Source of the DNA: Chrysoperla carnea
Lineage: Eukaryota > Arthropoda > Insecta > Neuroptera > Chrysopidae
DNA length: 64,000 nt
Assembly (NCBI RefSeq): GCF_905475395.1
Contig: NC_058342.1
Span: 31,082,140 to 31,146,139, forward strand
Direction: 5' to 3'
In this document: positions 3,057 through 60,849 of the stretch, piece by piece
Layout of the letters: every line of letters begins with the position of its first letter
Position numbering within the stretch: position 1 is the first letter of the stretch
Program-made: the position numbers and the translations under genes
The notes under the pieces: generated by a model
Seen by the model: only the letters and a program-made list of their open reading frames with translations
Database searches by the model: none
What the model was told of the DNA's origin: nothing

Positions 3057-6000
3057 GTAAGTTTATTAACTTCGTAAACTTCTATCTACTAACGCTAATC
3101 TAAAATCTAACTTCAGTACTTCAGTACTTATGTAGTTAGTGCTACTAACTTTTTACTATGTTTTTTTTTATTTAAAGAAACTTTATTCAACTAATTGTTC
3201 ATGCATGATTTATTTTAAAGCACATGTTTTCTTCCTTTCCTTTTATTCCCTTCATCCTTGTCTTGCGTGCGAACACGGGCCAACATAATACTCAAAAGTT
3301 TAACACCGAAATTTCTTTTCAAATTACAAATTGATTTTTCAAATTGATCTATGATTTTCGATCAAGATAGTCTCTATGCAGTAAGAAAGCAAAAAGTTAA
3401 ATAATTATCTGTGAATAGATCTTTGATCCAAGATTTTCCATCCAGATAATCGAATTCAGCGATTGTTTGCCGTTTTTTGACCTAGAACATACTAGAAAGT
3501 AATACAATGATTAAAACGTTCGATCGTTTTCGAGTCCTTTCTAAGTGTGATTCGATGAGAAAATTGATGTAAATTTGATAAATAATGAATAACAGGCTGA
3601 TCGAGTTAGGCCAGAAAAATAAAGTTAGTCAAATAATTTTAGCCCCTTATGAGTGCTTTTTATTTAATTAAGCTTTATCTAAATAGGGCAAAAACGATTG
3701 ACCTAGTCACAGGGCTAAATAACTTCAAGGCGTTAATCTTTTTTTGGGGAAAAATTTCTATCTACAATGTAGTCAATATGTAGTCAACTTATCAGTAACT
3801 ATTCTGTAACTAAGGGCTTCATTTTCTTGGCTAGAACAGTAAATCACTCTTTACTGACAAAAATGAGAGCTACGTCAAAAATAGATTAGTCTGTTCGAAT
3901 ATTAATACTCGATCAGTGTGAATAAGGCTTTATTAATAAATTCAAAAAATATTATTTAATGTTTTACTAAGAAACATGTGCGTACTGAAAGGAGAAGGTC
4001 GGGGTCCCTACCCCCTCTCTCCACGAGGGCTGCCTACCGTTTTGTTGGCTGAGTATGTACTTTATGCTAAAAATTTATAATTTGCTCCTCTCTACATTAA
4101 CAATTCCTGTTTCCCTCCCCTTGGACCAAAAGCTGATTTAGCCAAAGTGAGTTAATTGTCCAGGAAGTCTCTGAATGGCCCTAGGATAAAGCCATAAAGC
4201 ATGCTATCGAGAAGCAAATAATTTGGTTGGGTTGGAATTCTAAGAAAGATAGTGTTTGTTACATTTTTCCAGCCGGTGCAAAACCTAAAAAAGGCAAAAG
4301 AACCGGTTTTGATAACAATATTTGAAATTTGTTAGACAGTATATTACTTTGATTGAAACAACTCATGCGTTTGTGTCAACTTCACGACTCAATACCGTGG
4401 TGTATCACATTCGTGGCACCATTCGCCATATATGATTTCGCGATGAGGTTGAGACAATCGGTTGATATTAAGAATTTGTTTTCAGTGTATCTTTCTTAAA
4501 ATTTTTTCTTCTACTCGGCCAATTTTTTTGCTTTTTGATAGCATGGATCTTATTTTGTATGGTATATTTTGATTCCCTGGAATATAAAAGTTGTAAGCTT
4601 AAATTTTAGGCATGTGCATGATTTGTTTAATGAGTGAATAATAATAAATTTTGATTTGTTTAAACAAATGACAGTTACGGAGATATGGTACCTGAAACAA
4701 TAGCGGGTAAAATAGTTGGGGGTGTATGCTCGTTGAGCGGTGTGTTGGTGATAGCCTTACCTGTTCCAGTAATCGTATCAAATTTCAGTAGAATATATCA
4801 TCAGAATCAACGTGCTGATAAACGCAAAGCTCAAAGGGTACGTCAAATAATTTCGATTGTCAAAATTGAACGTGTTTATGACTTGACTACTGTACGTTTA
4901 CTGTTTACTACTTTCACACTATGTACTTAACTTAAATCACGTTCCACATGCATAGATACAACAGTTATATGTATTATAGTGTGAAGTATGCTTTATAACA
5001 AAACTCACAGCTACTTAGTTCAGTATCAGTGCCTATTTTTAACCAGCAGTATTATTTTGAGGTTCACGTTTTTATTTATAAATTATAACATTAATATTAA
5101 CTTTAACATTATACTTTATATTACTTATAGTACAATTAAACTAAGTATCTAATAGGAAAAAATTAATACATCTTTGAAATTTTCCAAGGTTATTTATTAA
5201 GGTGTAAACACTTCGTAAAAAAAAGTAGACCTCTCTCAGGGCCGTTCCTAACATCCTTTTTTGGGGGATAGTTAAGGGTTTTAATCTGTTTTTTATAATT
5301 TGTAAAAAACTGATTAAAACTCCCTACTACCCCTCAAAAAAAGGGGGCTAGGTACGCCCCTGAGAGGTCGACTTTTTTTTACAAAGTATTTACAGCCTTA
5401 TAAACAAATGTGGAAAATTTCAAAGATGCATTAATTTTTTCTTTATTATAATGATATTTTATTTAATTTTATTAGACTATTATATTATATTAATATTTTA
5501 ACATTACATTTACATCCTACTATAGTACAGTCGCTGCGGTTCGACTACAATGTCCTATTTACAATCCACATACGACATACTCAGACAATATGCTACGTCT
5601 AGTCTCCATCATTATCAAATCTATGACACAAGCGCGAATCCAGCCCTCAAAACAGGTGATGGGCTCGGCGCAGCATCCGAAAAACGGCCAAATGCGAATC
5701 GGAGTATGAACTCACTCATGGTCGATATAGTGCATTCCTACAAAGGAGATGTTTACAAAATATATGACGCTCTGACCAAAATTTTGTACAGTGTATTCGT
5801 AAATTAATAAACCTGTAAAATGTTAGTTTGCTCGCTTACAAAAATTACAAAAGTAAATGTGCGTTTGTTTACACATCACAGTGTCACATTTAGATTCTAA
5901 ACTACTGAACCAATTTTGATGAAATTTTTGTTACTTCAAATTAAATTAAACGCCAGTATACATTTTACATTAAATAACTTTATTTAAGTTCTTTACTTAA

Positions 6001-9000
6001 ATAACAAATTCAAGCTTTTGTTTTTTTTTTTCGCGGAAGCGTTGATAATATCATCGATTTCCAGATGTTTAGGAAAGCAAGCCCGAATAATCTTATTTTC
6101 ACATTCTGTTTTCCATTTGGCCACCCAGAGTCATTATTCATTTATAATAATTGATTCACTATCGTTAATGAATCTCCAGTAATACAAACAAAAAATTGTG
6201 GGATATGAAAAATGAACTTTCGACTTTTTATGTGTGTATCTGTATTCTTTGCTCTGACTCGTGAGACATGATCAACACGTGCGTCTGTACTATAAAAAAT
6301 TCACAATATTTTTCAAATTGAATTTGGGCCGTTTCTTTTGGCCATGCGCAATAAAATTGAAAACAGTACACTTGTGAATGAATACTGTTGAAGCTTATTT
6401 AGAATTAATTAATTTTTGATTTAACATTGCTATATAGTTCAGTTACAGTAGGTACAGTTATGGTGAATTCACACCGCAATCAATGACAAGTCCACCTATC
6501 CACTGATCAATGAACTATGATACTTACTTTTAATCCGAGTATTTGCGAACATATGGGCGCGCATCTCACACATAATATTTGACATTTGTATTTACAAGTC
6601 AAATATGTATGATATTCGCGCATATGGTCCGCAAGTGCTCGGACTAGAAGTAAGTAGTATGAACTCTATGAAATCCATGATTCAATCGTCATTTTATAGA
6701 TCATTTTTCATAGACATACTAATCATAGAGCTCAGTGATGAGTGGACGGAGCAAAGGAGCAATTAATATTCACGTGTCACGTGCGTTTTGAGTTCAACAT
6801 AAAATCTTCAAAAACAAATCGCTTTACTAAAAACGTATTAACTCATAAATTGTTTCGTTTTCTTGTTTTTCTTCTATCTTTTTTTGTTTTATAGTTTGAG
6901 GTTAAGTTTTTTTTAAATTTATTACTATAACAGTTGTATATTGTTGTCTCTCTTTACTATTACGTTTACGTATGGTTGTGGTACGTTATGCGTATCTGCG
7001 GACATACATAATTACACATTTACTATGGTGGTTGCGTTCAATTGAGGTGAGTGCTAGTACCGGCACCCCGTATATGATAATCAATTTTTCTTTATTATAA
7101 ATGAGGTGCCAGTGCTACCTTTCTCCTCATTATAGCTCACGTCGACTGAACGCAGCCACTGTGAAATTATATTCAGTGTCAAATAATTTGCAACAGTAAA
7201 TCACATTCTAAACGATTTTTACTGTAATAATAACACTTAGAATGTTATCACTGATGCGTTTTTAATGACACGGAGATACATTCGCATCACTTGCTGCATT
7301 GTTGCTATCACGTTGCCTATTTGATATTTATATACAATTTGCTCCGTAATTCTCGTATTCATCTCACACCATAGAGATATGAAGATAGAGAACGCTAGCC
7401 TGTTAGTGGATGCGAAGCGAGAGAGAAGACTGCCAGTAAGTTCCCCTGTGTCCTTGTCTAATACATATGATTATGACAAGGACCCAGGGGAACTCACTGA
7501 CAGTCTTCTCTCTCATTTAGCATATCGCCTCCACTTATAGGCTAGCAGATTCCTCGCGTTCTCTATGTATATTATTCTATGGCTCACACTGTAACCGGAT
7601 TGACTAAAAATTTAAATTACACACCACGTTAGCTGTTAATAGTTCCGTTTTATTAATTTTTAAATTTTTTGTAAAATTCCAAGAAAACAATTATTTCTCA
7701 AAACACAAAATCAAATCAATTAAATTTTGCAAATGTCACCATATTATAGTGTATCATTACCATGGAAACGCCTCCAATAGAACTCATGCACGGTGCGAAT
7801 ACTTGATTGAATTTAAAAAAAAACTAGGGACTTTTTTACTTTTAGTTTGACTTTAGAAATTCATTCTTCAAAGATTCTTAGTGACTTTTCTTCTTATGTC
7901 AATATTTAGCCAAATATAAATTGCCAAAAGTGTTATCTTGGTCTAAGTGGTCATTTAATAATTTCACTGCAAATATTTACCTTTAAAGTTTGCGAAGGTT
8001 TAGTCAAAAACCCAATCTTGTGTCATACCCAAATGATATATAGATGGCAGCATTTAGAACACGTAATTTTAAAAAACATGGAATAGTTATTATACAGTGC
8101 AACCTCATTATAATACTTTGGTGAACAAATAAATAGAGATGATGTAAACTGTACTAAACTTTGTAGTTGCGGTTTTGTGAGAGGCTATTTCCGTTATAAT
8201 ATTTACAAAAACATGTTTATTTGATAATCTAATAATTGATTTGGCGAGATTTATGGGCACAATTTGACTCTGATGGTATTACAGAAAGCAAGATTAGCGC
8301 GAATACGTATCGCAAAAGCATCCTCAGGTGCAGCATTTGTTAGCAAGAAGAAAGCGGCTGAAGCACGTTTGGCCGCCCAAGAATCTGGCATCGAATTGGA
8401 TGATAATTATCGTGAAGAAGATATATTCGAGTTACAGCATCATCATTTACTGCGATGTTTAGAAAAAACAACGGTAATTTGAGTTAATTTTTTGTTATTT
8501 TGTTTTGAATTACTAAAACTAATCGCTACATAAAAATAGTATCGTATCCGTATGCTAATTACAATTAATTGAACTGTGATTCTCTGATATTCTTTTGTTT
8601 TGTTTTGTACAAAATGAATTGCCTTCAATTCGATCCGTATATTTTGAACACCCAAAGTGTTTACAACTGTGGAAAATTTCAAAGATGCATTAATTTTTTC
8701 TTTATTACCATGATATTATTTTTAATTTTATTAGATTATTTAGTGTTTTTAAAATTGATCTTAGCTCAGTTTTAAATCCACGCACGTTGAATCCATTTTT
8801 GAACAGCACAAACATACGAGTATAGTTGTTTAATCAAAATATACGGCGGATTTATATTTGACGGCCAATTCAAATAATTACAAATTATGAACTTACAACA
8901 GGATAGGGAATTTGTTGAATTGGATGTACCATTTAATGGACAACCAAAACGACCGGGATCACCCTCGCCCATGGCAAGTCCAGCACATTCAAGTACAAGT

Positions 9001-12000
9001 CGTCATGTCGGCGGTCTGTTACACGCATGTTGCGGAGGTTGTTGCTGTACGCAACGTTATCAGGTACTAATTTTGTTATTTAAAACATTGCAATCTTGAA
9101 ATCAAATTTCAATTCGATCTGACTCCTGGTTTAGGTATTTCGACCTGTGATCCGAATGTAATTATTATTATTATTATTATTATAAATTACCTTATTGTAA
9201 GAGTACTGTTTCGTTACTCGTTACATGGCCTAAGACCTCTTGGAGAACACACAAATTAGTGGAGTGGAGTGACAAATTAGTCACATGGTTTCTACTATTT
9301 CTAATTTTCCGCCACTTAAAAAATGTAGTGATCAAATTGAACTTTATCGTTATGATTTCCGCAACTTTAAAAAAAAAATATAGCGAAAAAGTTCAGCCAT
9401 TTAAACTTTATCAGTAAGAAAAAAACAATGAAATAAGTTCAATTTGACGATCAAGCTTTTATATGTCCTCGAAGACTAATAATTTTCACGAAGACATCTA
9501 TAAATAATAGCTTGTAGCTAATTCATACCGATCAAAGCTTTATCGAAATACCTATTTAAAATTAATCCATTGTTCTAGACATTGGAGCAGATATTATATG
9601 AAATTTGATTTCAATGGCTACCCTTGTGGAAATAAATCTGTTCTGGAACTCTGGAATATTAACTTTGAAATTCAGACAAAGAATATGTCAAGTGAAACTA
9701 TCTCTGAATAAGTCAGAAAAAGTCTGAAAATATCAAATAAATTATTAATCAATCATTTTCTGTCATTAAATTATTGATTAATAATTTATTTGATATTTTC
9801 AAAATTTTTCTGACTTTTTCAGAGATAGTTTTACTTCACATATTCGTTTTCTGAATTTGAAACTAAATATTCTCCAGAGTTCCAGAACAAATTTATTTTT
9901 ACAAGGGTAGAGGTATCTCAAATCTTGGATCAGTATTGCCAGCCCTTGAATAGGATACCCACTAATATTTCGTATAAAACACCAAATTTATTTTTACAAA
10001 ATTTTTCGGAATGTATCAACAAGTTGGCAACACTGTCTTTGATAAAATAATTGAATAGTGTAACAATTTTGAGGTGATGTTTTTTTTTCTTTGAGAAGAT
10101 TAAAGAATCTAACCTAGAATCAAAATGTCCCCGAATCTGTCTTTGAATTAAGAAATACCAACATGACAATTACAAAATAAACGTATTACGTAACGCATTT
10201 ACGTGTACGTAATCGTTTGTGATTGGCTTCAGTTGGCTCATTTGGTTAGACAAAGACAATAAAAGTATTTTTTTTCTTGATTTTAGGTGAATTTCTATTT
10301 GTTTAAAAAAGAAACTTTTCCATTCAACAATTCCTAATTATTTTTTTGTTTATCATGTTTCTGTTTGTTTTCATTTTACAAGCGTTACAAAACGGGAATG
10401 GGAAAGGCTAGTTTGGGAATGATGGATGTTGCCGAAACTGAAGTTAGTTTTAGTACACATAACGTAAAACGTAAATAATTAAACGTAAATACGTTTACGT
10501 TAAACATGATCGTTGCGTTGGTTGTTATATTTTTTTTTTTAATATTTTACCTTATTTTTGGTTTTTATTTTTATAAATGGCGTCGCTCTTTGTCAAAATA
10601 CTTTTTCACCTATGCTACCTAAATAAATTTAAAAATAAATGATCATCGATCATTTGTCCTGTCGTAGATTGCTAGAGAAATTTAATTTTTCTATTTGGTA
10701 TCTGTTTTAACTTTGAGTCTCTTCTTACCCTTTTCGCCTCTTTTAGAGCCTGTTTGTGAGTATTGTTAAAAATCAAACACCATGGACCGATCGATCGATT
10801 TTGGTGATTTTGATATTTAACTTTACAATCTTTTTGCTGTTTAGTTTGTATCGATATTCGAACGAGTGTAGATTAAAATACCTACAGGAATATTCCATTC
10901 AACAAGTTTTCCTTTAAAAGATCCGAGTTCATTACTCATTTTGGCTTCCTAAAAATATGCAACATTTGGAATAGTGAGTTTTCAAAAACTATTCGCTCAG
11001 ATAAACGTGATTTTTGTAATTTTTTTAGGTCTAAATTACCACTTATACTGAGATTCATCGAAATTGGTACAAAAAATTTACTTTGATAAATAGTTTCAGA
11101 TATATTATCTGAATCCTTGCTCGATTTTAGATGATATTTCTCGATCTCGGCATATCTGGCAAACATTGAGTCAAATCGCCAAATTAACATGATTTTTATT
11201 GTTTTTGGGAAGAAGTTTTCAAAAAGAAGTTTTGACCCAAAAGATACAAAATTAATTTGTCGATGTGTAGCATTATTTTTGCAATATGCCCAGAAACCAG
11301 TATTTTAACCTGACTCAGAATATCAGAGGTTTTGGACGCAATTCTCGTTAATATATGTAAATTTCGTCATATAAGTGACGTATTGAGATATAAAATGTTC
11401 AGCGCAATAATGAATCTAAATGTTACATATTTTGAGTCAGAAACGTGTTACATGAACTGAATTGTTATGTTACACCCTGTAAATTTTAATAGCTATCTTG
11501 ATTAATGATCATATAAATTGCACAATCTTATATTTCATTATAATGTCTTAACACAAATTTCAATTATCCCCCTTGTAAAATATTAGCCCTATTGATTTGA
11601 GTTCAAGCGCTGAACGGAGTTGAGTTAGCATTAAAATTTATGACATTGAGAAATATTCAAATCCTTTGAACCCGCCCCCCGGTCTACTCGTACTCGTATT
11701 GGCTAGTATTGTATAATTTTATGTTAAAACAAAACAGGTTTGTGTGGACCATGACCATCCGGTTTAATTATGTAAAAATTTAAATCTTGATCTTTAGGTA
11801 AGTCAAGGGAATGTCGCTGACCGTTGACCGTTCACCGTTCATATAAATCTTAATGTGTTCCTGTCTCCAATACCAACTTAGTTTTCTTAGATTCTCTTTC
11901 TGAATCATTCTTATGATATTTCTCCCTAGCATTACCATTTGTTTATTTTAAGTGTACTTTAAGGAGGGTGACTCGCCAGTAATAGAAAAAAAATTAATTA

Positions 12001-15000
12001 GTTGATAATAATCCGAATTTTTAGTATATTATAATTAATGAAACATATTATTATACAGTGTATCGCATTTAAGAAACCTGCACACTTACGTCACTTAAGG
12101 GTACCCTTCAAAAAAATCGAAAAATCCAAAAAAATTTTTTACTCTCAGAATTGGATAAAACTTGGTTTATAAGGTAAAAATGACCCAAAAAATCCAAAAA
12201 TCGGGTTCATTTAACAATCGGATAAGTAGTTTTGGAAATATGGCCAGAAATATTGGGCGAATTTGCAATATCTCCAAAACTACCGCCCCAATTGCGAATT
12301 TAACGTGATTTTTGAATTTTTTGGGTCAAAATTAGCTTATAAACTGAGTTTTGTCAAAATCGGAAATAATATTTTTTTCTCAATTTTTTGCAATTTTCTT
12401 AAGGGGTACCCCTTCAAAAAAATCGAAAAAACCGAAAAAATTTTGTACTCTCAGAAATGGATAAAACTTGGTTTATAAGGTAAATATGACCCAAAAAATC
12501 CAAAAATCGGGTTCATTTAACAATCGGATAAGTAGTTTTGGAAATATGGCCAGAAATATAGGGCAAATTTGCAATATCTCGAAAACTACCGCCCCAATCA
12601 TGAATTTAACGTGATTTATGAATTTTTTGGGTCAAAATTAGCTTATAAACTGAGTTTTGTCAAAATCGGAAATAATATTTTTTTCTCAATTTTTTGCAAT
12701 TTTCTTAAGGGGTACCCCTTCAAAAAAATCGAAAAAACCGAAAAAATTTTGTACTCTCAGAATTGGATAAAACTTGGTTTATAAGGTAAATATGACCCAA
12801 GAAATCCAAAAATCGGGTTCATTTAACAATCGGATAAGTAGTTTTGGAAATATGGCCAGAAATATTGGGCGAATTTGCAATATCTCCAAAACTACCGCCC
12901 CAATTGCGAATTTAACGTGATTTTTTAATTTTTTGGGTCAAAATTAGCTTATAAACTGAGTTTTGTCAAAATCGGAAATAATATTTTTTTCTCAATTTTT
13001 TGCAATTTTCTTAAGGGGTACCCCTTCAAAAAAATCGAAAAAACCGAAAAAATTTTGTACTCTCAGAAATGGATAAAACTTGGTTTATAAGGTAAATATG
13101 ACCCAAAAAATCCAAAAATCGGGTTCATTTAACAATCGGATAAGTAGTTTTGGAAATATGGCCAGAAATATAGGGCAAATTTGCAATATCTCGAAAACTA
13201 CCGCCCCAATCATGAATTTAACGTGATTTATGAATTTTTTGGGTCAAAATTAGCTTATAAACTGAGTTTTGTCAAAATCGGAAATAATATTTTTTTCTCA
13301 ATTTTTTGCAATTTTCTTAAGGGGTACCCCTTCAAAAAAATCGAAAAAACCGAAAAAATTTTGTACTCTCAGAATTGGATAAAACTTGGTTTATAAGGTA
13401 AATATGACCCAAGAAATCCAAAAATCGGGTTCATTTAACAATCGGATAAGTAGTTTTGGAAATATGGCCAGAAATATAGGGCAAATTTGCAATATCTCGA
13501 AAACTACCGCCCCAATCATGAATTTAACGTGATTTATGAATTTTTTGGGTCAAAATTAGCTTATAAACTGAGTTTTGTCAAAATCGGAAATAATATTTTT
13601 TTCTCAATTTTTTGCAATTTTCTTAAGGGGTACCCCTTCAAAAAAATCGAAAAAACCGAAAAAATTTTGTACTCTCAGAATTGGATAAAACTTGGTTTAT
13701 AAGGTAAATATGACCCAAGAAATCCAAAAATCGGGTTCATTTAACAATCGGATAAGTAGTTTTGGAAATATGGCCAGAAATATAGGGCAAATTTGCAATA
13801 ACTCGAAAACTACTGCCCCAATCGTGAAATGAACATGATTTTTGAAGTTTTTGGGTCAAAATTACCTTATAAACTGAGTTTCGTCAAAATCGGTAATAAT
13901 AGTTTTTTCTCAATTTTTTGCAATTTTCTTAAGGGGTACCCCTTCAAAAAAATCGAAAAAACCGAAAAAAATTTTTACTCTCAGAATTGGATAAAACCTG
14001 GTTTGTAAGGTTAATATAAACCAAAAAATCCAAAAATCGAGTTCATTTGACGATCGGATTCATATTTTTGAAAATATGGCCGCAAATATAGGGCGAATAT
14101 CTCGAAAACTACTTACTCCTAAATGAACTTCTCTTTCAAAACTACTTACTCCTAAATGAACTTCTCTTTCAAAACTACTTACTCCTAAATGAACTTCTCT
14201 TTCAAAACTCTCGTGAAATGAACTTGAGGTTTGAAATTTTTTGCTCAAAATTAACTTACCTTACCGATCAATTAAGAAGTTTAATTAATTAATAATACAC
14301 TAAATAACATAAGCATTCTCATAACAAATTATGTTATTTAGTATATTTTTATTTAATTAATTACTTTCTTAATTGGTCGGTAAGTTGCCCTAATATTTTT
14401 AAAATATAATAATATGTTTCGCTAACTATAACACACTAAAAATTCGGAATATTATCTACTAATTTATTTTTTTCTATTACTGGCGAGTCACCCTCCTTAA
14501 GTTTGTTCCCTGCATAATTAATTGATCTCAAAATATTTCATCTATTTTTATTTATTTATTTTTTTTCTTTTGTGATTAATCAAATTTCTTGCCATTTTGA
14601 TTACATTTTCAAATATGAAACTTGAACAAAAAAAATGTCATCAGTTTGAATTCGCTAAATATTTTTTTTTTTAACTTGGTAACGTAAAATTCGACTGACT
14701 TCAGTGTAGTCAAGATTTTATTAGGAAAAATGATTGTCCCCGCAGGCGTTAACACCAAAAAATCGAGTTTAGATGTTTCGACTATGTAGAAGTTAATTTA
14801 GTGCAGTCAGAATTTTACAAAGAACACTGAAAGTCCGCTTGTTAAAAGACAAACTGAAATACGCGTCGTAACCCTTTGGTGTTCCAGCTTGTCTTTCGCC
14901 GATCGGACTTTCAGTTTTCTTAGAACAATTTTGACTACACTGAATAAATTAAGTGAAACAGCACTCGATTTTTTGAAACTCCAAGTTCTGACAATTAAAC

Positions 15001-16412
15001 TTTCACTTTTCCCAATAAACTCTCAACTATATTTACAAGGACTCACGAACAAAATTAGCGACCAGTGACATGTTTCTCTTAAAATTAGCTAATTCATACT
15101 GATGATGACTAACTTTTAATTGAAATGCGTATTATTTTAGCCAAGTTGGCTTTAATGATGAGACCAAGTCTCAATATGGACCGTAATAGTCTACCTTACT
15201 AAAAACTTTCATTTGGAAACTTATCAAAAATATCTTTTAATAACATCTGAAATTGATTTTTGAAAATGTAATCAAAAATATGAAATTTATTTTGTACGAA
15301 TTACAATGAAAAACTTTCGATTTGGAAAATCTCATCTAGATCAGAGTCACTATATATTACTAATTAACCTTTAAATAATATACTAATTGAGCTTTTAACG
15401 CAAAACTTTCTTACGCTAACGTAAAACTTACCATTGATGTATGCTTTTTTGTGAATTAACATACAATCTAATCAAAAAATAAAAAACTTTGGCAGCAAAA
15501 TGCACGATGTTTGGGAAAAATAATTTAACAAGTTAATTCATCAGAGTTCTTGGCAAATTTTTTCTTTCCAAGACTGTTTTGATGGGATTAATTTTCAATA
15601 TTATTTCACCCGAACACTCTGTATTTTTTAAAATTTTGCATTCATGTTTTGGTGTGAAGCTATAATAACTATTTTGCAATTTTTGTAATTCAGACTCTGG
15701 TTTTGTGGAATATAGTTTGCTAACAAAAATTAAGTGATCAATTTTTTATCGAAAGAAAATGATCACTAAACCGTAGTTGCTAATCCAATCCGTAAAACTA
15801 CAAAAAAAAACGTCAAAATATATAAGGCAGGAATTATAGAAAACTCTTTGATTAGAGGTAAGGAGAATCATCTCTGTATATAAAAAACGTCCACGAAAAT
15901 CAGAAAATTGGTGGCGCTGCTGTAGCAAAAGGGTAATTTTTAAAAGAAAGTAATAAGAGTAAGATAATCTTCATATCAAACACCTTTTGCTATACAAGCG
16001 CCATTCTGGTGAATTTTAGAACTATTATTTGATATTTTCAGCTGAACACTTTTTCAATTTGACCCCTATTTAAGATGGTTCTTCTTATCTCTACCCTCCA
16101 TAAAATTTCAGTTCTTTTCAGTTCTGTGATTCCTACCCTGTCAAAATATAGGCTAGTGGTTAATTGTAAAAGTCGAAGCTTTTATAATTATCCACTAGTG
16201 GCGCTAGCTATTAATTAAATGTTTTTTGTGTGATGTAAAATTAATGGTCCCCAAAAATTTGAAAAAAAGAAAACATTTGAAATAATATTATTGAACAAAT
16301 GAATTGTATTTAGCAGGCATGCGGCAAATACATCCCAGCAACGTCAGCCGTTCAAAATAATCAAACTGGTGGAGGTATGGATGGAACATATCTTGTGGAA
16401 GCATCATTTTAA
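1942..16412 (+). CDS. Shal: Voltage-gated A-type potassium channel Shal (Kv4 family)
   Basis: Tetrameric plasma-membrane potassium channel carrying the somatodendritic transient A-current. Five coding exons: 1942-3056, 4675-4837, 8285-8473, 8902-9063 and 16317-16412, joining to 574 residues, the usual length for insect Shal. In order: an N-terminal hydrophobic inactivation/KChIP-binding segment ([18 protein letters not shown]); a T1 tetramerisation domain about 42-135 with the Kv4 zinc signature H105-x5-C111-x20-C132-C133; S1-S3 about 184-277; an S4 with regular arginines about 293-311; S5; the filter TLGYGD across exons 1 and 2; S6 with PVPVIV. The C-terminus contains [18 protein letters not shown] and ends GTYLVEASF. 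The start is fixed by the conserved [15 protein letters not shown]. All internal junctions are GT-AG and keep frame. Identity is secure; alternative splicing at the C-terminus is possible. Confidence 0.97.
3057..4674 (+). other. Shal intron 1
   Basis: Starts GTAAGT and ends ACAG before TTACGGAGAT. I see no coding exon and no clear element boundary in its 1.6 kb. Confidence 0.85.
4675..4837 (+). CDS. Shal: Shal coding exon 2 (selectivity filter and S6)
   Basis: Begins with the third base of the split glycine, then [16 protein letters not shown], the S6 helix with the PVPVIV gating hinge, and the membrane-proximal [11 protein letters not shown]. Donor GTACGT at 4838, phase 0. The reading frame continues into the intron to a stop at 4928, which is not coding. 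Confidence 0.95.
5155..5441. mobile_element. Foldback (hairpin) element with hAT-like core
   Basis: The left side reads ACATCTTTGAAATTTTCCA and the right side carries its near reverse complement TGGAAAATTTCAAAGATGC, with pairing continuing inward almost to the centre. Inside, 5237-5362 starts CAGGGCCGTTCCTA and ends TAGGTACGCCCCTG, termini resembling those of hAT-type MITEs. A clear target duplication is not visible because the flanks themselves pair. Confidence 0.7.
5850..6185 (+). repeat. Dispersed repeat, inverted copy at 53200-53540
   Basis: Shared in reverse complement with 53200-53540: TGTGCGTTTGTTTACACATC, then a CCAATTTTGATGAAATTTTT segment typical of insect transposon ends, then AAGCAAGCCCGAATAATCTT. 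No intact ORF. The 53 kb copy lies inside a hAT element, so this family moves independently. Confidence 0.75.
6470..6765. mobile_element. Foldback element
   Basis: The left arm TACTTACTTTTAATCCGAGT pairs with the right arm around GCTCGGACTAGAAGTAAGTA, and pairing continues through ACATATGGGCGCGC with CGCGCATATGGT. Weaker outer pairing involves TCCACTGATCAATGA with TCAGTGATGAGTGGA. There is no coding content. Confidence 0.65.
7022..7163. mobile_element. Short foldback element
   Basis: Outer arms ATGGTGGTTGCGTTCA and TGAACGCAGCCACT are imperfect reverse complements, and the inner arms CCGGCACCCC and AGGTGCCAGT also pair. About 140 bp, non-coding, the second of three hairpins within 1.1 kb. Confidence 0.65.
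7368..7583. mobile_element. Foldback element with long near-perfect arms
   Basis: GAGAGAAGACTGCCAGTAAG pairs with CTGACAGTCTTCTCTCTC, and TTCCCCTGTGTCCTTGTC pairs with GACAAGGACCCAGGGGAA around a loop near 7470. The outer ends CCATAGAGAT and ATTCTATGG also pair. It is more GC-rich than the surrounding intron. Confidence 0.7.
8285..8473 (+). CDS. Shal: Shal coding exon 3 (proximal C-terminus)
   Basis: Phase 0 at both ends. Encodes [18 protein letters not shown] through the dileucine-type dendritic-targeting motif region [15 protein letters not shown]. Acceptor ACAG at 8281-8284, donor GTAATT at 8474. Confidence 0.95.
8474..8901 (+). other. Shal intron 3 with a fragment of the 5.4 kb foldback
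   Basis: About 430 bases. Bases 8668-8742 are nearly identical to 5409-5483 (TGTGGAAAATTTCAAAGATG onward), a solo end of the intron-2 foldback family. Nothing else is recognised. Confidence 0.7.
8902..9063 (+). CDS. Shal: Shal coding exon 4 (distal C-terminus)
   Basis: Phase 0 at both ends. Encodes [20 protein letters not shown], a serine/proline-rich stretch, then a cysteine cluster ([14 protein letters not shown]), possibly palmitoylated or metal-binding by inference. Acceptor AG at 8900-8901, donor GTACTA at 9064. Confidence 0.94.
9618..9910. mobile_element. Foldback element in Shal intron 4
   Basis: CTACCCTTGT at the left pairs with ACAAGGGTAG at the right. Inner pairs include TCTGGAACTCTGGAATATT with ATATTCTCCAGAGTTCCAGA and AAATTATTAATCAAT with ATTGATTAATAATTT. 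Pairing runs almost the full 293 bp. Non-coding. Confidence 0.75.
10383..10442 (+). CDS. Candidate alternative Shal exon (20 codons, phase 0)
   Basis: Inside Shal intron 4, a long pyrimidine tract ending TTTTACAAG precedes a non-AT-rich 60-nt open segment translating [20 protein letters not shown], followed by a donor-like GTTAGT. It is in phase 0 at both ends, so it could be inserted between exons 4 and 5 without a frameshift. If the donor is not used, the frame runs on to TAA at 10476-10478 and would make an alternative C-terminus ending THNVKRK. Base composition stands out from the surrounding intron. I do not recognise the peptide from known Shal isoforms, so this is inference from splice signals and composition. 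Confidence 0.4.
12095..13990 (+). repeat. Tandem satellite array, 306-bp monomers, six units
   Basis: The landmark GAATTTAACGTGATTT recurs at exactly 306-bp steps. Units fall into types by diagnostic words: A (ATTGGGCGAATTTG, CTCCAAAACTACC) at about 12246 and 12863; B (ATAGGGCAAATTTG, CTCGAAAACTACC) at about 12552, 13170 and 13476; and a diverged C at about 13782, giving A-B-A-B-B-C. Each monomer is itself an imperfect dyad around GGGGTACCCC: the AAAACTTGGTTTATAAGG arm pairs with GCTTATAAACTGAGTTTT. The 71-codon ORFs repeating here are by-products of the period (306 is divisible by three), not genes. Confidence 0.95.
14105..14210 (+). repeat. 33-bp tandem triplicate
   Basis: Three identical copies of a 33-bp unit containing AAAACTACTTACTCCTAAAT lie between the satellite array and the right terminus of the TTAA element. 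Confidence 0.95.
14260..14384. repeat. Palindrome nested in the TTAA element
   Basis: CTTACCGATCAATTAAG at the left pairs with CTTAATTGGTCGGTAAG at the right, and ACTAAATAACATAA pairs with TTATGTTATTTAGT around a short loop. Probably a small MITE or hairpin inserted in the larger element. Confidence 0.8.
14753..14978. mobile_element. Foldback element in Shal intron 4
   Basis: CACTGAAAGTCCG pairs with CGGACTTTCAGTTTTCTT; outward, TTTAGTGCAGTCAGAATTTT pairs with AATTTTGACTACACTGAATA; further out, AAAAATCGAGT pairs with ACTCGATTTTTT. Non-coding. Confidence 0.7.
16317..16412 (+). CDS. Shal: Shal terminal coding exon 5
   Basis: Encodes [16 protein letters not shown], a GGGMDG stretch, then TYLVEASF and TAA at 16410-16412. 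The acceptor is a tandem TAGCAG (16311-16316). Using the second AG gives QRYQ-ACGK, the form expected from the fly protein; using the first would add one glutamine. Confidence 0.93.
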   Translation, partial: ACGKYIPATSAVQNNQTGGGMDGTYLVEASF

Positions 16413-27589: not shown

Positions 27590-29200
27590 GTGTGGCAAAA
27601 ATTTCATTCAAATCGGATAAAATTTGGGTGTATTATGAAAAAAATTAATTTTTGAACTTTATGACGTCATCAAAATCCAAAAAATTTTATTTTGCTCTAT
27701 CTCATCCAAATTAAATTCAATTTTAATAAACAAGGTATGGAATTATACTAAATTTAGGTCATACTTTTCAAAGTTGTGGTCAGATTTAACCTATCTATAA
27801 AAGTTTTGAAGATAGTGTGGTCCTGGTTCCGATATTTCGCACAAAGTTGAATGTTAGCTAAAAAATAACATCAAAAATGAAAAGTTTGACCCAAAATTAG
27901 TAGGTTTCAAAAAAAATTCCGTTCAAATCGGATAAAATTTGGGTGTATTATGGAAAAAATTAATTTTTGAACTTTATGACGTCATCAAAATCCAAAAAAT
28001 TTTATTTTGCTCTATCTCATCCAAATTAAATTCAATTTTAATAAACAAGGTATGGAATTATACTAAATTTAGGTCATACTTTTCAAAGTTGTGGTCAGAT
28101 TTAACCTATCTATAAAAGTTTTGAAGATAGTGTGGTCCTGGTTCCGATATTTCGCACAAAGTTGAATGTTAGCTAAAAAATAACATCAAAAATGAAAAGT
28201 TTGACCCAAAATTAGTAGGTTTCAAAAAAAATTCCGTTCAAATCGGATAAAATTTGGGTGTATTATGAAAAAAATTAATTTTTGAACTTTATGACGTCAT
28301 CAAAATCCAAAAAATTTTATTTTGCTCTATCTCATCCAAATTAAATTCAATTTTAATAAACAAGGTATGGAATTATACTAAATTTAGGTCATACTTTTCA
28401 AAGTTGTGGTCAGATTTAACCTATCTATAAAAGTTTTGAAGATAGTGTGGTCCTGGTTCCGATATTTCGCATAAAGTTGAATGTTAGCTAAAAAATAACA
28501 TCAAAAATGAAAAGTTTGACCAAAATTAGTAGGTTTCAAAAAAAATTCCGTTCAAATCGGATAAAATTTGGGTGTATTATGAAAAAAATTAATTTTTGAA
28601 CTTTATGACGTCATCAAAATCCAAAAAATTTTATTTTGCTCTATCTCATCCAAATTAAATCCAATTTTAATAAACCAAGTATGGAATTATACTAAATTTA
28701 GGTCATACTTTTCAAAGTTGTGGTCAGATTTAACCTATCTATAAAAGTTTTGAAGATAGTGTGGTCCTGGTTCCGATATTTCGCATAAAGTTGAATGTTA
28801 GCTAAAAAATAACATCAAAAATGAAAAGTTTGACCAAAATTAGTAGGTTTCAAAAAAAATTCCGTTCAAATCGGATAAAATTTGGGTGTATTATGAAAAA
28901 AATTAATTTTTGAACTTTATGACGTCATCAAAATCCAAAAAATTTTATTTTGCTCTATCTCATCCAAATTAAATCCAATTTTAATAAACCAAGTATGGAA
29001 TTATACTAAATTTAGGTCATACTTTTCAAATTTGTGGTCAGATTTAACCTATCTATAAAAGTTTTGAAGATAGTGTGGTCCTGGTTCCGATACTTCGCAC
29101 AAAGTTGATTGTCAGCTATAAAAGAACATCAAAAATGAAAAGTTTGGCCCAAAATTAGTCGGTTTCAAAAAAAATTTTGTTCAAATCGTCATTTTCGTCA
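27590..29200 (+). repeat. Tandem array, ~315-bp unit, about five copies
   Basis: The word ATGACGTCATCAAAATCC starts at 27661, 27976, 28291, 28605 and 28919, a period of 315, 315, 314 and 314. Other landmarks repeating with it are CTATCTCATCCAAATTAAAT and GTGTGGTCCTGGTTCCGATA. A sixth, diverged unit decays over about 29190-29340. The perfect palindrome TGACGTCA occurs once per full unit. No long ORF and no obvious terminal inverted repeat was seen at the array ends. Confidence 0.95.
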
Positions 29201-35885: not shown

Positions 35886-36281
35886 TTCGAAACTTGACCA
35901 AAATATCTGTCACACCAGTAAAAAGGTTTTTTTAATATTCAAAGTGACTTAGGGAGTTGTTGGGCCCTCTCAATCGTAAAATACCTTTATAGTTATTTCT
36001 TAAGGACGTAATAAGGAATCATTTTTTAACGGAATTAGTGGACGGACACAAAATTTTTTTAAAATAATTTTCAATCAATAACTAGTCGAAACTTCAGTTA
36101 CATGATGTCAGACGTACCAATTTCTTGGTATACATATCCTTTTTCAGGGTCCAAATATCCCCAAAGCTGGATATTTGAAAAAAAAAGATGGTACATTCAC
36201 ACAAAAACAGTCATAGGATACCAGTTTTTAGCGACATCCAGATTTATTGGGCTATCTGACATCACTGCAATAATTACGTTT

Positions 36282-36560
36282 GTGTCTGCTAATTAATAAA
36301 TATGGAGTATTCCCTAAAATTATAGCAATCGGAAAAAACAATTATACAGAATATAAAAAATCAGGTTCATTTGGCGGATTGAACTAGTAGTTTTAGAGAA
36401 AAATGATATCTCGGATCGATTTTCGACGTTATCTCGATAACTACTCGCGCAAATGTTAAATACACCCGATTTTTTAATTTTTTGAATCAAAATTACCTTC
36501 TAGCATGAGTTTTATCTAATTCGGAAAAGAAAAATTTGAGATAAACATGGCATATATTTT
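36282..36560 (+). repeat. Satellite-related dispersed repeat, copy 1
   Basis: ATATGGAGTATTCCCTAAAA, GGTTCATTTGGCGGATTGAA and GATATCTCGGATCGATTTTC are shared with 38227-38420. Its phrasing resembles the 306-bp monomers of the Shal-intron array but is clearly diverged. Confidence 0.7.
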
Positions 36561-37812: not shown

Positions 37813-38226
37813 TATTACCTCATGTGTTGGCACGTTTCTCACTGTACGAAAGATAGGCGATGCTTAGTCTATGTATAACTCTAAAGTCAATGTGTCATTC
37901 ATATGAAGTATGTTCTTTTTGTACCATAGTGATCCATTATTTATACTGAGTGCAAATACAGAATGCCCGTGACTCGATGAACATACATTAAAATTAGTCG
38001 AAAGTGCTTTATATACTTTCGCCTTTACTTTCGTCCGAAACGCAATAGTTAAAGAGTTATTTATTATGGGCACTATTGAATTTAAGCAATAGAGTAAAAA
38101 CATTATTACTACACTATTTACACTTGTCTTCTACCCTCATATAAAAAGAACAATTTTCATTTGCGTCATATAGCATAGAGATACTAGAGATAGATAAGCC
38201 AAAATACTCCCAATTAATAATTACGT

Positions 38227-38740
38227 TTGTAATTACTAATTAAATAATATGGAGTGTTCCCTAAAATTATAGGAATCGAAGAAAAAAATTATACAGAATA
38301 TCAAAAATCGGGTTCATTTGGCGGATTGAACTAGTAGTTTTAGAGAAAAACGATATCTCGGATCGATTTTCAACGTTATATCTCGAAAACTACTCGCCCT
38401 AATGTGAAATACACCCGATTTTTTCGAATTGAACAAATCGAAAAAGAACAATTTGTCTCGATTTTTTGCAATTTTTAAAGGGGTACCCTTCGAAAAAATC
38501 GAAAAAATCCAAAATTTTTTTTTTTCGAAATTTGATTAAGCTCATGTTACAAGGTAATTCTGACCCAAAAAATTCAAAAATCGGATACATTTTACGATTG
38601 GTTGTGTATTTTCGAATATATAGTCTGGTAAGATAAGGATCTGTATCTTAGAAACTATTTACGCAATCGTAAAGCATATCCGATTTTTGAATTTTTTGGG
38701 TTAAAATTACCTTATACAGAGTGATATTTTGAATCGATTT
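38227..38740 (+). repeat. Satellite-related dispersed repeat, copy 2
   Basis: The first ~190 bases match 36282-36475. The following part (AAAGGGGTACCCTTCGAAAA, CCAAAAAATTCAAAAATCGG) is a diverged version of the 306-bp monomer found at 12095-13990. So monomer-like sequence also exists outside the TTAA element. Confidence 0.75.
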
Positions 38741-39524
38741 TAGGCTTGGTCTCATAAATGTTTAGTAGAATCATCCGTCAAATAATAGATATTCTAGTTT
38801 TTAAGTCCAATAATTTATGTAACTTCTATCTTATAGTATCTCTATGACTCATAAATTCATGGGAATTTTGATTGTATAACCCATGTATAATCAAAGATTC
38901 ATGATTCAATGTTTATTTAGAAACAGTTTTTTTTTGCCGCCCCCAAATTTAGCCGAATTAGCCCTTACGTAAATACACTTTTTATTTAAAAGTATTGAAT
39001 GTCCTATGAATTCGTATCTTCATGTATGGATATTTTTGATAATAATTAATTGTGTTATCTCAGTAATGAATTTTTATAGTAATTAATACTTTTATTATTT
39101 ACTATTTTCTTATCGTACAACTAGATAGTATTTATTCATTCATTGTGTTGTATCACTTTCAATAAAAAAATTGTAAACCCTTCCGATACAATGAGACCCC
39201 ACTAACATAGTTTGCTGATTTTCATTTTTTTTTTTTCAAATATGGCGTCTGGTGGTCGCCATATTGACTTTTTATTACTACCATATCTGCAGTGGCCCTC
39301 GCAAGATTAAAACAAATCTATTGAATACATATTTTTCATAAGTAGAACTTAAGGTGCACTGGCAGAGGGGGAGGTCAGGGCTAGTGCTCTAGGCAAGGTC
39401 CTTGGGAGTCAATTTGACGCCACACAAAGAACATGACCCATATTTTTACTTTGATAGGTAATCAGAGTCGAGTAAATTGAAGTCTATGGTAAGAATTATG
39501 ACGATTAATATTTATACTCTGTAT
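38741..39524. other. Gene-free spacer
   Basis: No ORF, array or element boundary recognised. Confidence 0.5.
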
Positions 39525-56954: not shown

Positions 56955-57380
56955 ACCTCGCCAACTGGTGATAACATTACGTACTAATTAAAACAGGAAC
57001 TCCTTTTCAGTAGTTCCAATTTAGACCAACAGGTGTTAATACTTGTACTTACCATTTTTAACAGCCAACAAAAATATTCAAATTCAAGTGAATAAACTCC
57101 ACTGCCAACTGGCGATAATAATTCGTACTAATTAAAACAGGAACTCGTTTTCAGTAGTTCTAATTTAGACCACCAGGTGTTAATACTTGTACTTACCATT
57201 TTTAACAACCAACAAAAGTATTCAAATTCAAGTGAATAAACTCCACTGCCAACTGGCGATAATAATTCGTACTAATTAAAACAGGAACTCGTTTTCAGTA
57301 GTTCTAATTTAGACCACCAGGTGTTAATACTTGTACTTATCATTTTTAAAAGCCAATAAAAATATTCAAATTCAAATTAG
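56955..57380 (+). repeat. 144-bp tandem repeat, about three copies
   Basis: CCAACTGG starts at 56961, 57105 and 57249, exactly 144 apart. TTTTCAGTAGTTC and CAGGTGTTAATACTTGTACT recur in each unit. Units 2 and 3 are closer to each other than to unit 1. Confidence 0.93.
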
Positions 57381-59904: not shown

Positions 59905-60494
59905 ATTTAAAAAACAAGTGAAAACAAACAATTGACTGAGTTAATTGTTGAAATACTATGTATAGACAGTGTTGTTTACTCTGTTCCATTACACATACAT
60001 ACATGTCACACACACATAACTGATATAATTCTACAATTTGCGCATAATATGCACTCTCACGGGTAAACAGTGATGTTTACGAAAAAATGTTTCAAATAAA
60101 AGTTGTTTATTTTTCTATAGAGAACATTTTTTGCATTTAAACTTTTGTTCTATCTCTAACGGTATAGAAGATGGATCCTACGGACCCAAGACCCAATTGA
60201 CCTTTGTTGATCATTTACGAACTCGACCTCACTTTTTATGTCCTCAGCACGCTATAAAAAGTAAGTAATCGTGATGACAGACGGACAGACGACAGACAGA
60301 CAGACAACCGGAAATGGACTAATTAGGTAATTTTATGAGAACCTATACCAAAATTTTTGTTATAGCATCAATATTTTTAAGCGTTACCAACTTGGGACTA
60401 AACTTAATATACCTTGGTATATTTAATATACATGGTATAAAAAGTTGGGACTAAACTTAGTATACCTTGGTATATTTCATATACATGGTATAAA
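59905..60494 (+). repeat. Dispersed repeat family R, longest copy, with duplicated tail
   Basis: Starts near GTGAAAACAAACAATTGACT and runs through ACGGGTAAACAGTGATGTTT, CTATCTCTAACGGTATAGAA and CGGAAATGGACTAATTAGG to ACATGGTATA at about 60436. The last ~58 bases (AAGTTGGGACTAAACTTAGT to ATGGTATA) are then repeated. No ORF; class unknown. Confidence 0.85.
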
Positions 60495-60849
60495 AAATCG
60501 CCTGGTTTTTCAACGCGATAAATAATTAAGGATGTGTGAGCATGGTTACAAGATAATTTTACAAGATAATTAATAGGTGGCAAGACACTGAAATTAGAAA
60601 CAATTCAGCAAAAAAAGTAGTCAAAGTTACCTCAAACCATACACTTGGGTCAACGTGTCACCAGTTGCCAGAATGCAGTAACATTATATTTTATAATAAT
60701 AATTTTAAGCAGCTGATTGTAAGTTAAGTACAATTCACAACTTACAGTTTGCTTCAATTATTTTTACTTATATTTTCCCCAAAAATATAAACTTATGCTC
60801 TGTATCGAGGGTTAATTGGGAAGAATGAAGTGATAAGCACTGATAATTT
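60495..60849. other. Gene-free spacer
   Basis: A solo fragment of foldback family F (TTAAGGATGTGTGAGCATGG) lies at about 60528. Otherwise nothing recognised. Confidence 0.45.

Follow-up and report, generated by a model that had tools for sequence, protein, structure and literature searches.

A 306-bp satellite array inside two nested miniature transposons: a probable composite mobile element in the lacewing Chrysoperla carnea

Xenopus, bivalves, and Drosophila all provide examples of small non-autonomous elements with a tandem array as cargo (PMC9659126, PMC12628747, PMC8268682, PMC4079207; here and below, papers are cited for the parts of them that we consulted). Among elements that insert at TTAA, Kolobok transposons have purine-purine ends, with AGGRR in the T2 miniature inverted-repeat transposable elements (MITEs) (PMC6004289), and piggyBac transposons have TTAACCC ends and terminal repeats of ~13 bp (PMC12324416). 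Here we describe an element at positions 11963 to 14496 (2,534 bp) of a 64,000-nucleotide stretch of Chrysoperla carnea contig NC_058342.1 (forward strand, 31,082,140 to 31,146,139; hereafter the window). Very probably this is a three-layered composite DNA transposon, itself non-autonomous, in which a TTAA-inserting MITE contains a TA-inserting MITE and the latter contains an array of a 306-bp satellite. The genome under study comprises 559,487,470 bases in 337 contigs; the figures published for assembly inChrCarn1.1 are 337 scaffolds and a total of 560,248,701 (PMC10116181). All counts obtained by searching the whole genome at the DNA level are minimum values, and loci for reading were picked by similarity to the window copy.

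TTAA flanks the window element at its left and at its right (Table 1). Its inverted repeat is perfect over the outer 34 bp including the TTAA, and the match extends to 97 columns with 88 identical, again counting the TTAA. These coordinates agree with an earlier note on this DNA, which had described a unit with inverted termini of ~90 bp between two TTAA copies. The cargo listed in that note was also recovered: six 306-bp monomers followed by a degenerate seventh (tandem-repeat score of 3618, 96% matches), a 33-bp triplicate (3.2 perfect copies), and a palindrome. No stop-to-stop frame of 90 amino acids or more overlaps the element, consistent with the claim that it carries no transposase.

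The left arm of the window copy has at least 43 matches in the genome (852 first-look candidates, 40 scored). Twenty left-arm loci were taken with ~9 kb on their inner side. Nine hold two-ended copies of 1.2 to 1.8 kb with 1 to 3 full monomers, a further ten keep the left end while the right end is absent or cut, and one locus (L028) is satellite-free. Together with the window, the ten two-ended copies range from 1,220 to 2,534 bp and from 1 to 6 full monomers, providing the copies with other monomer numbers that the note had proposed to look for. TTAA is present on both sides in 8 of the 10, and the left side reads ATAA in two. Across the fetched loci, 53 of 56 recognisable outer ends abut TTAA, the remainder being two at ATAA and one shifted by one base. 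The flanks of the ten two-ended copies (900 bp per side) are unrelated, save for one dispersed repeat common to L010 and L013. The 21-base outer end has 86 exact sites in the genome and 189 at up to 2 mismatches; the 86 exact sites against 0 in a reversed control indicate that the element is not a chance arrangement. Against viral contigs, the outer end gave 0 and 1 match, and the single locus (L001) was left unused.

An empty target site could also be identified, within the same genome, for one insertion. The copy at L015 landed within another member of the TA-MITE family described below, and when its flanks are put together with one TTAA between them, 9 of the 13 TA-MITE loci read run across the join uninterrupted (e.g., L056, 131-242). 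Empty sites were sought among the fetched loci; for L016, two weak spanning matches (70% and 85%) were left unused. The note had held that the unit moved as one piece and that the lack of any other copy with the same termini, or copies lacking the TTAA duplication, would mean another origin for the inverted ends. The unrelated flanks of the two-ended copies, nine of them outside the window, and the TTAA at nearly all of the ends bear out its movement as a unit.

The array itself is bounded by a second inverted repeat. In 8 of the 10 two-ended copies it lies between CAGTGTATCGCATTTAAGATGAAG... on the left and the complement on the right, with TA outside both; the window copy and L013 are without the right inner end. 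The first 25 bases of the inner end, allowing up to 3 mismatches, occur at 1,976 genome sites (960 + 1,016) and at 0 in the control. Thirteen inner-end loci were read: 15 of their 16 ends abut TA, inverted partners matched in 4 of the 13, and the 306-bp monomer had no match in them at E 0.01. The TA beside the ends, the number of sites, and the lack of satellite indicate that the middle layer came from a MITE family of its own, one that inserts at TA and is independent of the outer element. In addition to the TA target duplication, this family has a CAGTG terminus, which we take to be common in Tc1/mariner elements, the presumed superfamily of the middle MITE.

Both states of the nesting site are present in the genome. 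The empty TA site, TTATTGTATAAAAC, is uninterrupted in 11 of 12 satellite-free outer-MITE loci, and in the composites it is filled, with TTATTATA followed by CAGTG...CTG and then by TATAAAAC. A strict junction pattern recovers the left side in 16 and the right side in 10 of 27 loci, a set that includes the satellite-free L028 and in which L064 is not counted on the left (its match is on the other strand, at the right inner end). Four loci (L020, L021, L022, and L024) have the left inner end by alignment yet fail the strict pattern. The same nested junctions recur in different composite copies, for which a single insertion is the simplest account.

The outer layer likewise exists without the cargo. 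Satellite-free outer MITEs measure 155 to 364 bp in nine two-ended copies, all with TTAA on both sides and most of them palindromic. They share the arm and the core palindrome with the right part of the window element, so the palindrome that the note had listed as a separate component is the heart of the outer element. This outer element, a palindromic MITE that measures ~350 bp and is without satellite in other copies, has the features of its class: it is short, has inverted-repeat ends, occurs in many copies (the 189 end sites), and lacks a frame of 90 amino acids or more in the window copy. Its ends read TTAA followed by GGAGGG (TTAAGGAGGG), with inverted repeats of ~94 bp. By the TTAA target duplication and the purine-purine terminus these ends look Kolobok-like and, with GGAGGG and long repeats, not like those of piggyBac. 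As the searches below tied no transposase to these ends, we do not file the element as Kolobok; Sola3 is another superfamily of the TTAA type. Four of the satellite-free outer MITEs (L040, L041, L042, and L043) pair an ordinary end with a variant one (GGAAGGTCCCTCGGCAATAATAG) and look as though two end types were joined.

Kolobok transposases are characterised by DDE, THAP, and H2CH. A search for THAP domains gave 142 matches, of which 141 were compared (one, on another contig, was dropped); the nearest lies 22.5 kb from any of 100 listed outer-end sites of the 189. PF20700, which we presume to be near Kolobok, gave 43 matches; the single locus read (L073, C5:65802600-65806600) is without the outer ends and settles nothing. 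At this locus the PF20700 (Mutator) protein frame runs on into a putative exonuclease domain, judged from the frame reading, with no library match.

Within the window array, the half-monomers after the first half-unit follow the order D-A-C-B, D-A-C-B, C-B, E, in which the two D halves differ at one base. A 612-bp dimer is duplicated once, monomer 4 is an exact repeat of monomer 2, and the fifth monomer is a mosaic. The higher-order structure claimed for this array thus stands in a limited sense only, as one duplicated dimer. Each monomer is also a dyad, monomer 3 matching its own reverse complement at 208 of 306 positions (maximum of 134 in 300 letter shuffles). Among 54 full monomers from 20 copies, identity is 96.1% within a copy versus 93.6% between copies, a difference as large as which appeared in 0 of 2,000 label shuffles, and the nearest relative of 33 of the 54 lies within the same copy. 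The within-copy likeness, the dimer duplication, and the mosaic unit are the mark of unequal exchange or conversion. Other copies match 39 to 58 bp of the 33-bp-unit stretch at 80 to 93%; given these weaker matches, the perfect triplication looks private to the window copy among the copies read.

The monomers form tandem arrays, as in satellite DNA, which is also typified by long arrays in heterochromatin; the arrays seen are short among the matches listed from a search in which 40 of 2,155 candidates were scored. From these we read 37 satellite loci (the window, L010-L027, L029, L032-L035, and L060-L072). Of the 37, 25 retain an outer or inner end in whole or in part, L035 has the tail only, and 11 are without either set of ends. 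The 11 end-less arrays hold 1.5 to 4.4 units with varied start and stop points, and their monomers are 93.4% alike to carried monomers, which are 93.5% alike among themselves. The only sequence shared among their flanks is 83 bp between L069 and L071 and 35 bp between L033 and L068. End-less arrays may have broken out of the package or may be independent. Two further loci, L030 and L031, have monomers at 82 to 85% and are also without ends. The array relative at L030 (C6:28024000-28025400, 82 to 84%) lies between 165-bp direct repeats that are 93% alike, and a similar array follows ~5 to 6 kb on.

More distant relatives of the satellite are found elsewhere. Of the two in the window (Table 1), that at 38216 has at least 255 matches (40 scored of 2,088 candidates), many of them spaced 306 to 307 bp apart. 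Diverged relatives form many short arrays genome-wide. The two window relatives are 90% alike over 167 bp and share a left extension. At L078, L079, and L080, a relative at 72 to 74% in 5.5 to 5.8 units lies in a third transposon family, whose ends, shared by the three loci, are AACAAGAGAAAAC... and ...ATATATACATGGTA; by these ends the family may be Helentron-like. At L079, pieces of the outer-MITE core lie on both sides of the third-family element. A 53-bp unit present twice at 60392-60496 of the window resembles, by eye, the third-family end (GGGACTAAACTTAATATAC...ATACATGGTAT).

We suggest the following history for the window element. The outer layer is the ~350-bp palindromic MITE that inserts at TTAA, Kolobok-like by its ends. 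A TA-inserting MITE, Tc1/mariner-like by its ends, sits at a TA of the left arm, which it would have entered most simply once. The short 306-bp dyad array lies inside this middle MITE, and either of the two may have come first. A transposase acting on the outer ends may then have carried the whole package to new TTAA sites. In each landed copy, unequal exchange or conversion would have altered the monomer number and homogenised neighbouring units, and some arrays, perhaps after breaking out, now stand without either set of ends.

Several observations weigh against this three-layer account or limit it. The package is not the sole form of the satellite, as the 11 end-less loci demonstrate. The outer ends depart from the T2-MITE terminal AGGRR at the first base, since they start with GGAGGG and AGGG begins two bases in. 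No autonomous element with the outer ends (TTAAGGAGGGTGACTCGCC) was found among the 100 listed of 189 end sites, and larger carriers could be among the 89 further sites. In the window copy the nesting is hidden, because the inner right end is absent there. Four loci (L034, L035, L066, and L067) match neither side of the junction pattern, which inspects one position and is therefore unable to count junctions elsewhere. As regards the order of events, every TA-MITE end seen in the 37 satellite loci came together with outer-MITE sequence, and a satellite-free TA-MITE inside a satellite-free outer MITE was seen in 0 of 12 loci.

The earlier note proposed that a piggyBac-type element had captured the satellite array directly and that a piggyBac-type transposase could spread satellite seeds. 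The TTAA target duplication fits this proposal, and the genome does have 125 matches to piggyBac transposases, several with uninterrupted frames. However, the ends of the window element are GGAGGG with repeats of ~94 bp, whereas those described for piggyBac are TTAACCC with ~13 bp (PMC12324416), and one intact multi-copy piggyBac family of this genome has a left end (TTAACCCC) unlike the outer ends and a right end without the mirror-image CCC. Of the 125 matches, 101 were compared with the 100 listed outer-end sites, those on other contigs and neighbouring fragments being dropped, and none lies within 28 kb. The search suggested in the note for a piggyBac transposase gene with the same termini returned none in this set. 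Further, the array is bounded by the ends of another transposon, the nested TA-flanked carrier that the note had missed. On the grounds of ends, repeat length, and distance to the listed sites we reject piggyBac as the carrier, and we consider direct capture by such an element very unlikely. What stands from the proposal is that transposition dispersed copies of the satellite.

Even less credible is that the 306-bp repeats arose in the outer MITE by tandem self-duplication, in the way of Xstir or Tetris and with no nesting, for which Xenopus and Drosophila virilis offer precedents of such form (PMC6004289, PMC12628747, PMC4079207). The array is flanked by the ends of an independent family with its 1,976 sites, and the monomer has diverged relatives in another transposon. 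Nor does any of eleven outer-MITE loci without satellite match the monomer at E 0.01, which refutes an origin from the outer MITE for the loci read. A more serious contender, although still rather improbable, is that the satellite spreads mainly alone, for example as excised circles, with the transposon copies secondary. This is partly compatible with a composite, and it agrees with the 11 end-less loci, with the one more that has the tail only, and with end-less and carried monomers being equally alike. Against it, in a set of 37 loci drawn wholly from the satellite's own match list, 25 keep some transposon end, and the end-less arrays share only the two short flanking stretches given above and have varied boundaries. 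Since the two-ended copies share junctions and TTAA, transposition did spread many of the arrays. The nested composite remains our preferred explanation for the window element. It leaves room for a further reading, which we put forward tentatively and hold at somewhat less than an even chance: that one family of 306-bp dyad satellites is for the most part a passenger switching vehicles, found in at least two unrelated transposon families (the TA-type MITE nested in the TTAA-type MITE, and the third family), with nesting as the switch between transposition machineries. The third, possibly rolling-circle family would also lie in the TTAA MITE at one locus (L079). If so, satellites would be passed through this genome in a relay from one transposon superfamily to another, and the end-less arrays would be the drop-offs.

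Table 1. Composite element and related satellite sequence in the window (position 1 is the first base of the window)
Feature	Position	Strand	Basis
Left target-site copy, TTAA	11959..11962	.	Sequence
Left arm of the palindromic, Kolobok-like outer MITE (TTAA element); its last bases, TA, are the insertion site of the inner element	11963..12055	+	At least 43 genome matches; alignments
Left end of the inner TA-flanked MITE (CAGTGTATCGCATTT...), 38 bp here versus 44 bp in most copies	12056..12093	+	Alignments; 1,976 genome sites
Six 306-bp satellite monomers, each dyad-symmetric, with a duplicated 612-bp dimer	12094..13929	+	Tandem-repeat analysis; half-monomer comparison
Seventh monomer, degenerate; the last monomer is likewise partial in the nine other two-ended copies	13930..14104	+	
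33-bp unit, 3.2 perfect copies	14105..14209	+	
Spot without the inner-MITE right end in the window copy (end kept in 8 of 10 two-ended copies)	14250..14259	.	Alignment
Core palindrome of the outer MITE, shared with satellite-free copies	14259..14391	.	Alignment
Right arm of the outer TTAA element	14404..14496	-	Alignments
Right target-site copy, TTAA	14497..14500	.	Sequence
Older diverged relative of the dyad monomer, outside the element	36269..36537	+	
Older diverged relative of the dyad monomer, ~74% across the monomer part, outside the element	38216..38750	+	

The element lies in a conserved ion-channel intron, as the earlier note had stated. The first exon of the surrounding gene matches the Shal-type N terminus, BTB, and ion-transport families. 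Probed with Shal motifs, the window has other Shal coding pieces at ~4668-4837, 8285-8475, and 8902-9063, and then at 16314 beyond the element; the last two place it within a Shal (Kv4) intron of ~9.06 to 16.31 kb. Going by size, the window contig, C6 (38.56 Mb), would be the X chromosome, for which PMC10116181 gives 38.62 Mb. The 37 satellite loci and 71 plain outer-end loci are alike in their proximity to chromosome ends (P = 0.35), and each set is closer to the ends than expected from a uniform distribution. In a Shal coding exon, positions 4668-4783 match the Rfam potassium channel RNA editing signal at 68.7 bits (gathering score of 51), which may merely mirror conserved coding sequence. 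Other tandem arrays are also present in the window. A satellite-like one, at 27597-29188, has 5.1 copies of a 314- to 315-bp unit at 98%, with degenerate copies to ~29330; it shows no inverted ends, and its unit does not convincingly resemble that of 306 bp (best E of 0.011). Another, at 56960-57375, has 2.9 copies of a 144-bp unit that are 94% alike.

This composite is one concrete route for carrying satellite DNA and bears on the old question of how satellites are dispersed. One genome displays the steps together: empty outer elements, empty inner elements, filled packages with varied monomer numbers, and arrays without a package. As the target sites of the package are still readable and a chromosome-level C. 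carnea assembly exists, the order of events is testable in sister species. There is also a warning in the window copy, which alone hides the nesting: the immediate flanks of an array may be carrier remnants. A literature search of open-licence papers, in the parts consulted, yielded no report that we recognised of a satellite array in a MITE nested in a MITE with another target, nor of Chrysoperla satellites. To the extent of that search, what is new here is satellite carriage by nested MITEs, with cargo-free forms of both MITEs and the dispersed composite in one genome.

Among described systems, TCAST of Tribolium castaneum likewise places a satellite in transposon-like elements near euchromatic genes, but there the satellite pieces lie within inverted repeats, some with ACT duplications (PMC3411249). 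Tetris, with its TIR-220 repeats, in Drosophila virilis is similarly foldback and non-autonomous and varies in repeat number between copies; it differs in that the repeats are part of its own terminal repeats (PMC4079207). The Helitron/Helentron elements with central satellite arrays (CgiSat of oyster) also come as scattered short arrays, element-bound beside end-less (PMC8268682), and the related lacewing satellite at L078-L080 lies in an element perhaps of that kind. The window element itself is flanked by TTAA and has long inverted repeats, so that, unlike Helitrons and Helentrons, it is of the cut-and-paste type. Xmix and Xstir, T2-MITEs of the Kolobok superfamily in Xenopus, resemble it in TTAA target, purine-purine ends, non-autonomy, and tandem array (PMC6004289, PMC12628747). 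Their ends are AGGRR (PMC6004289) as opposed to GGAGGG in the lacewing, and their repeats are reported to be an amplified internal MITE segment, whereas the lacewing repeats have a 306-bp dyad unit and lie inside a nested TA-flanked transposon. As in the lacewing, miDNA4 of Xenopus tropicalis, a Tc1/mariner MITE, holds a tandem repeat that is thought to have been captured and that is present in one to several copies (PMC12628747, PMC9659126). In C. carnea, by contrast, the TA-type carrier sits in a TTAA element, and it is the ends of the latter that did the spreading we observe.

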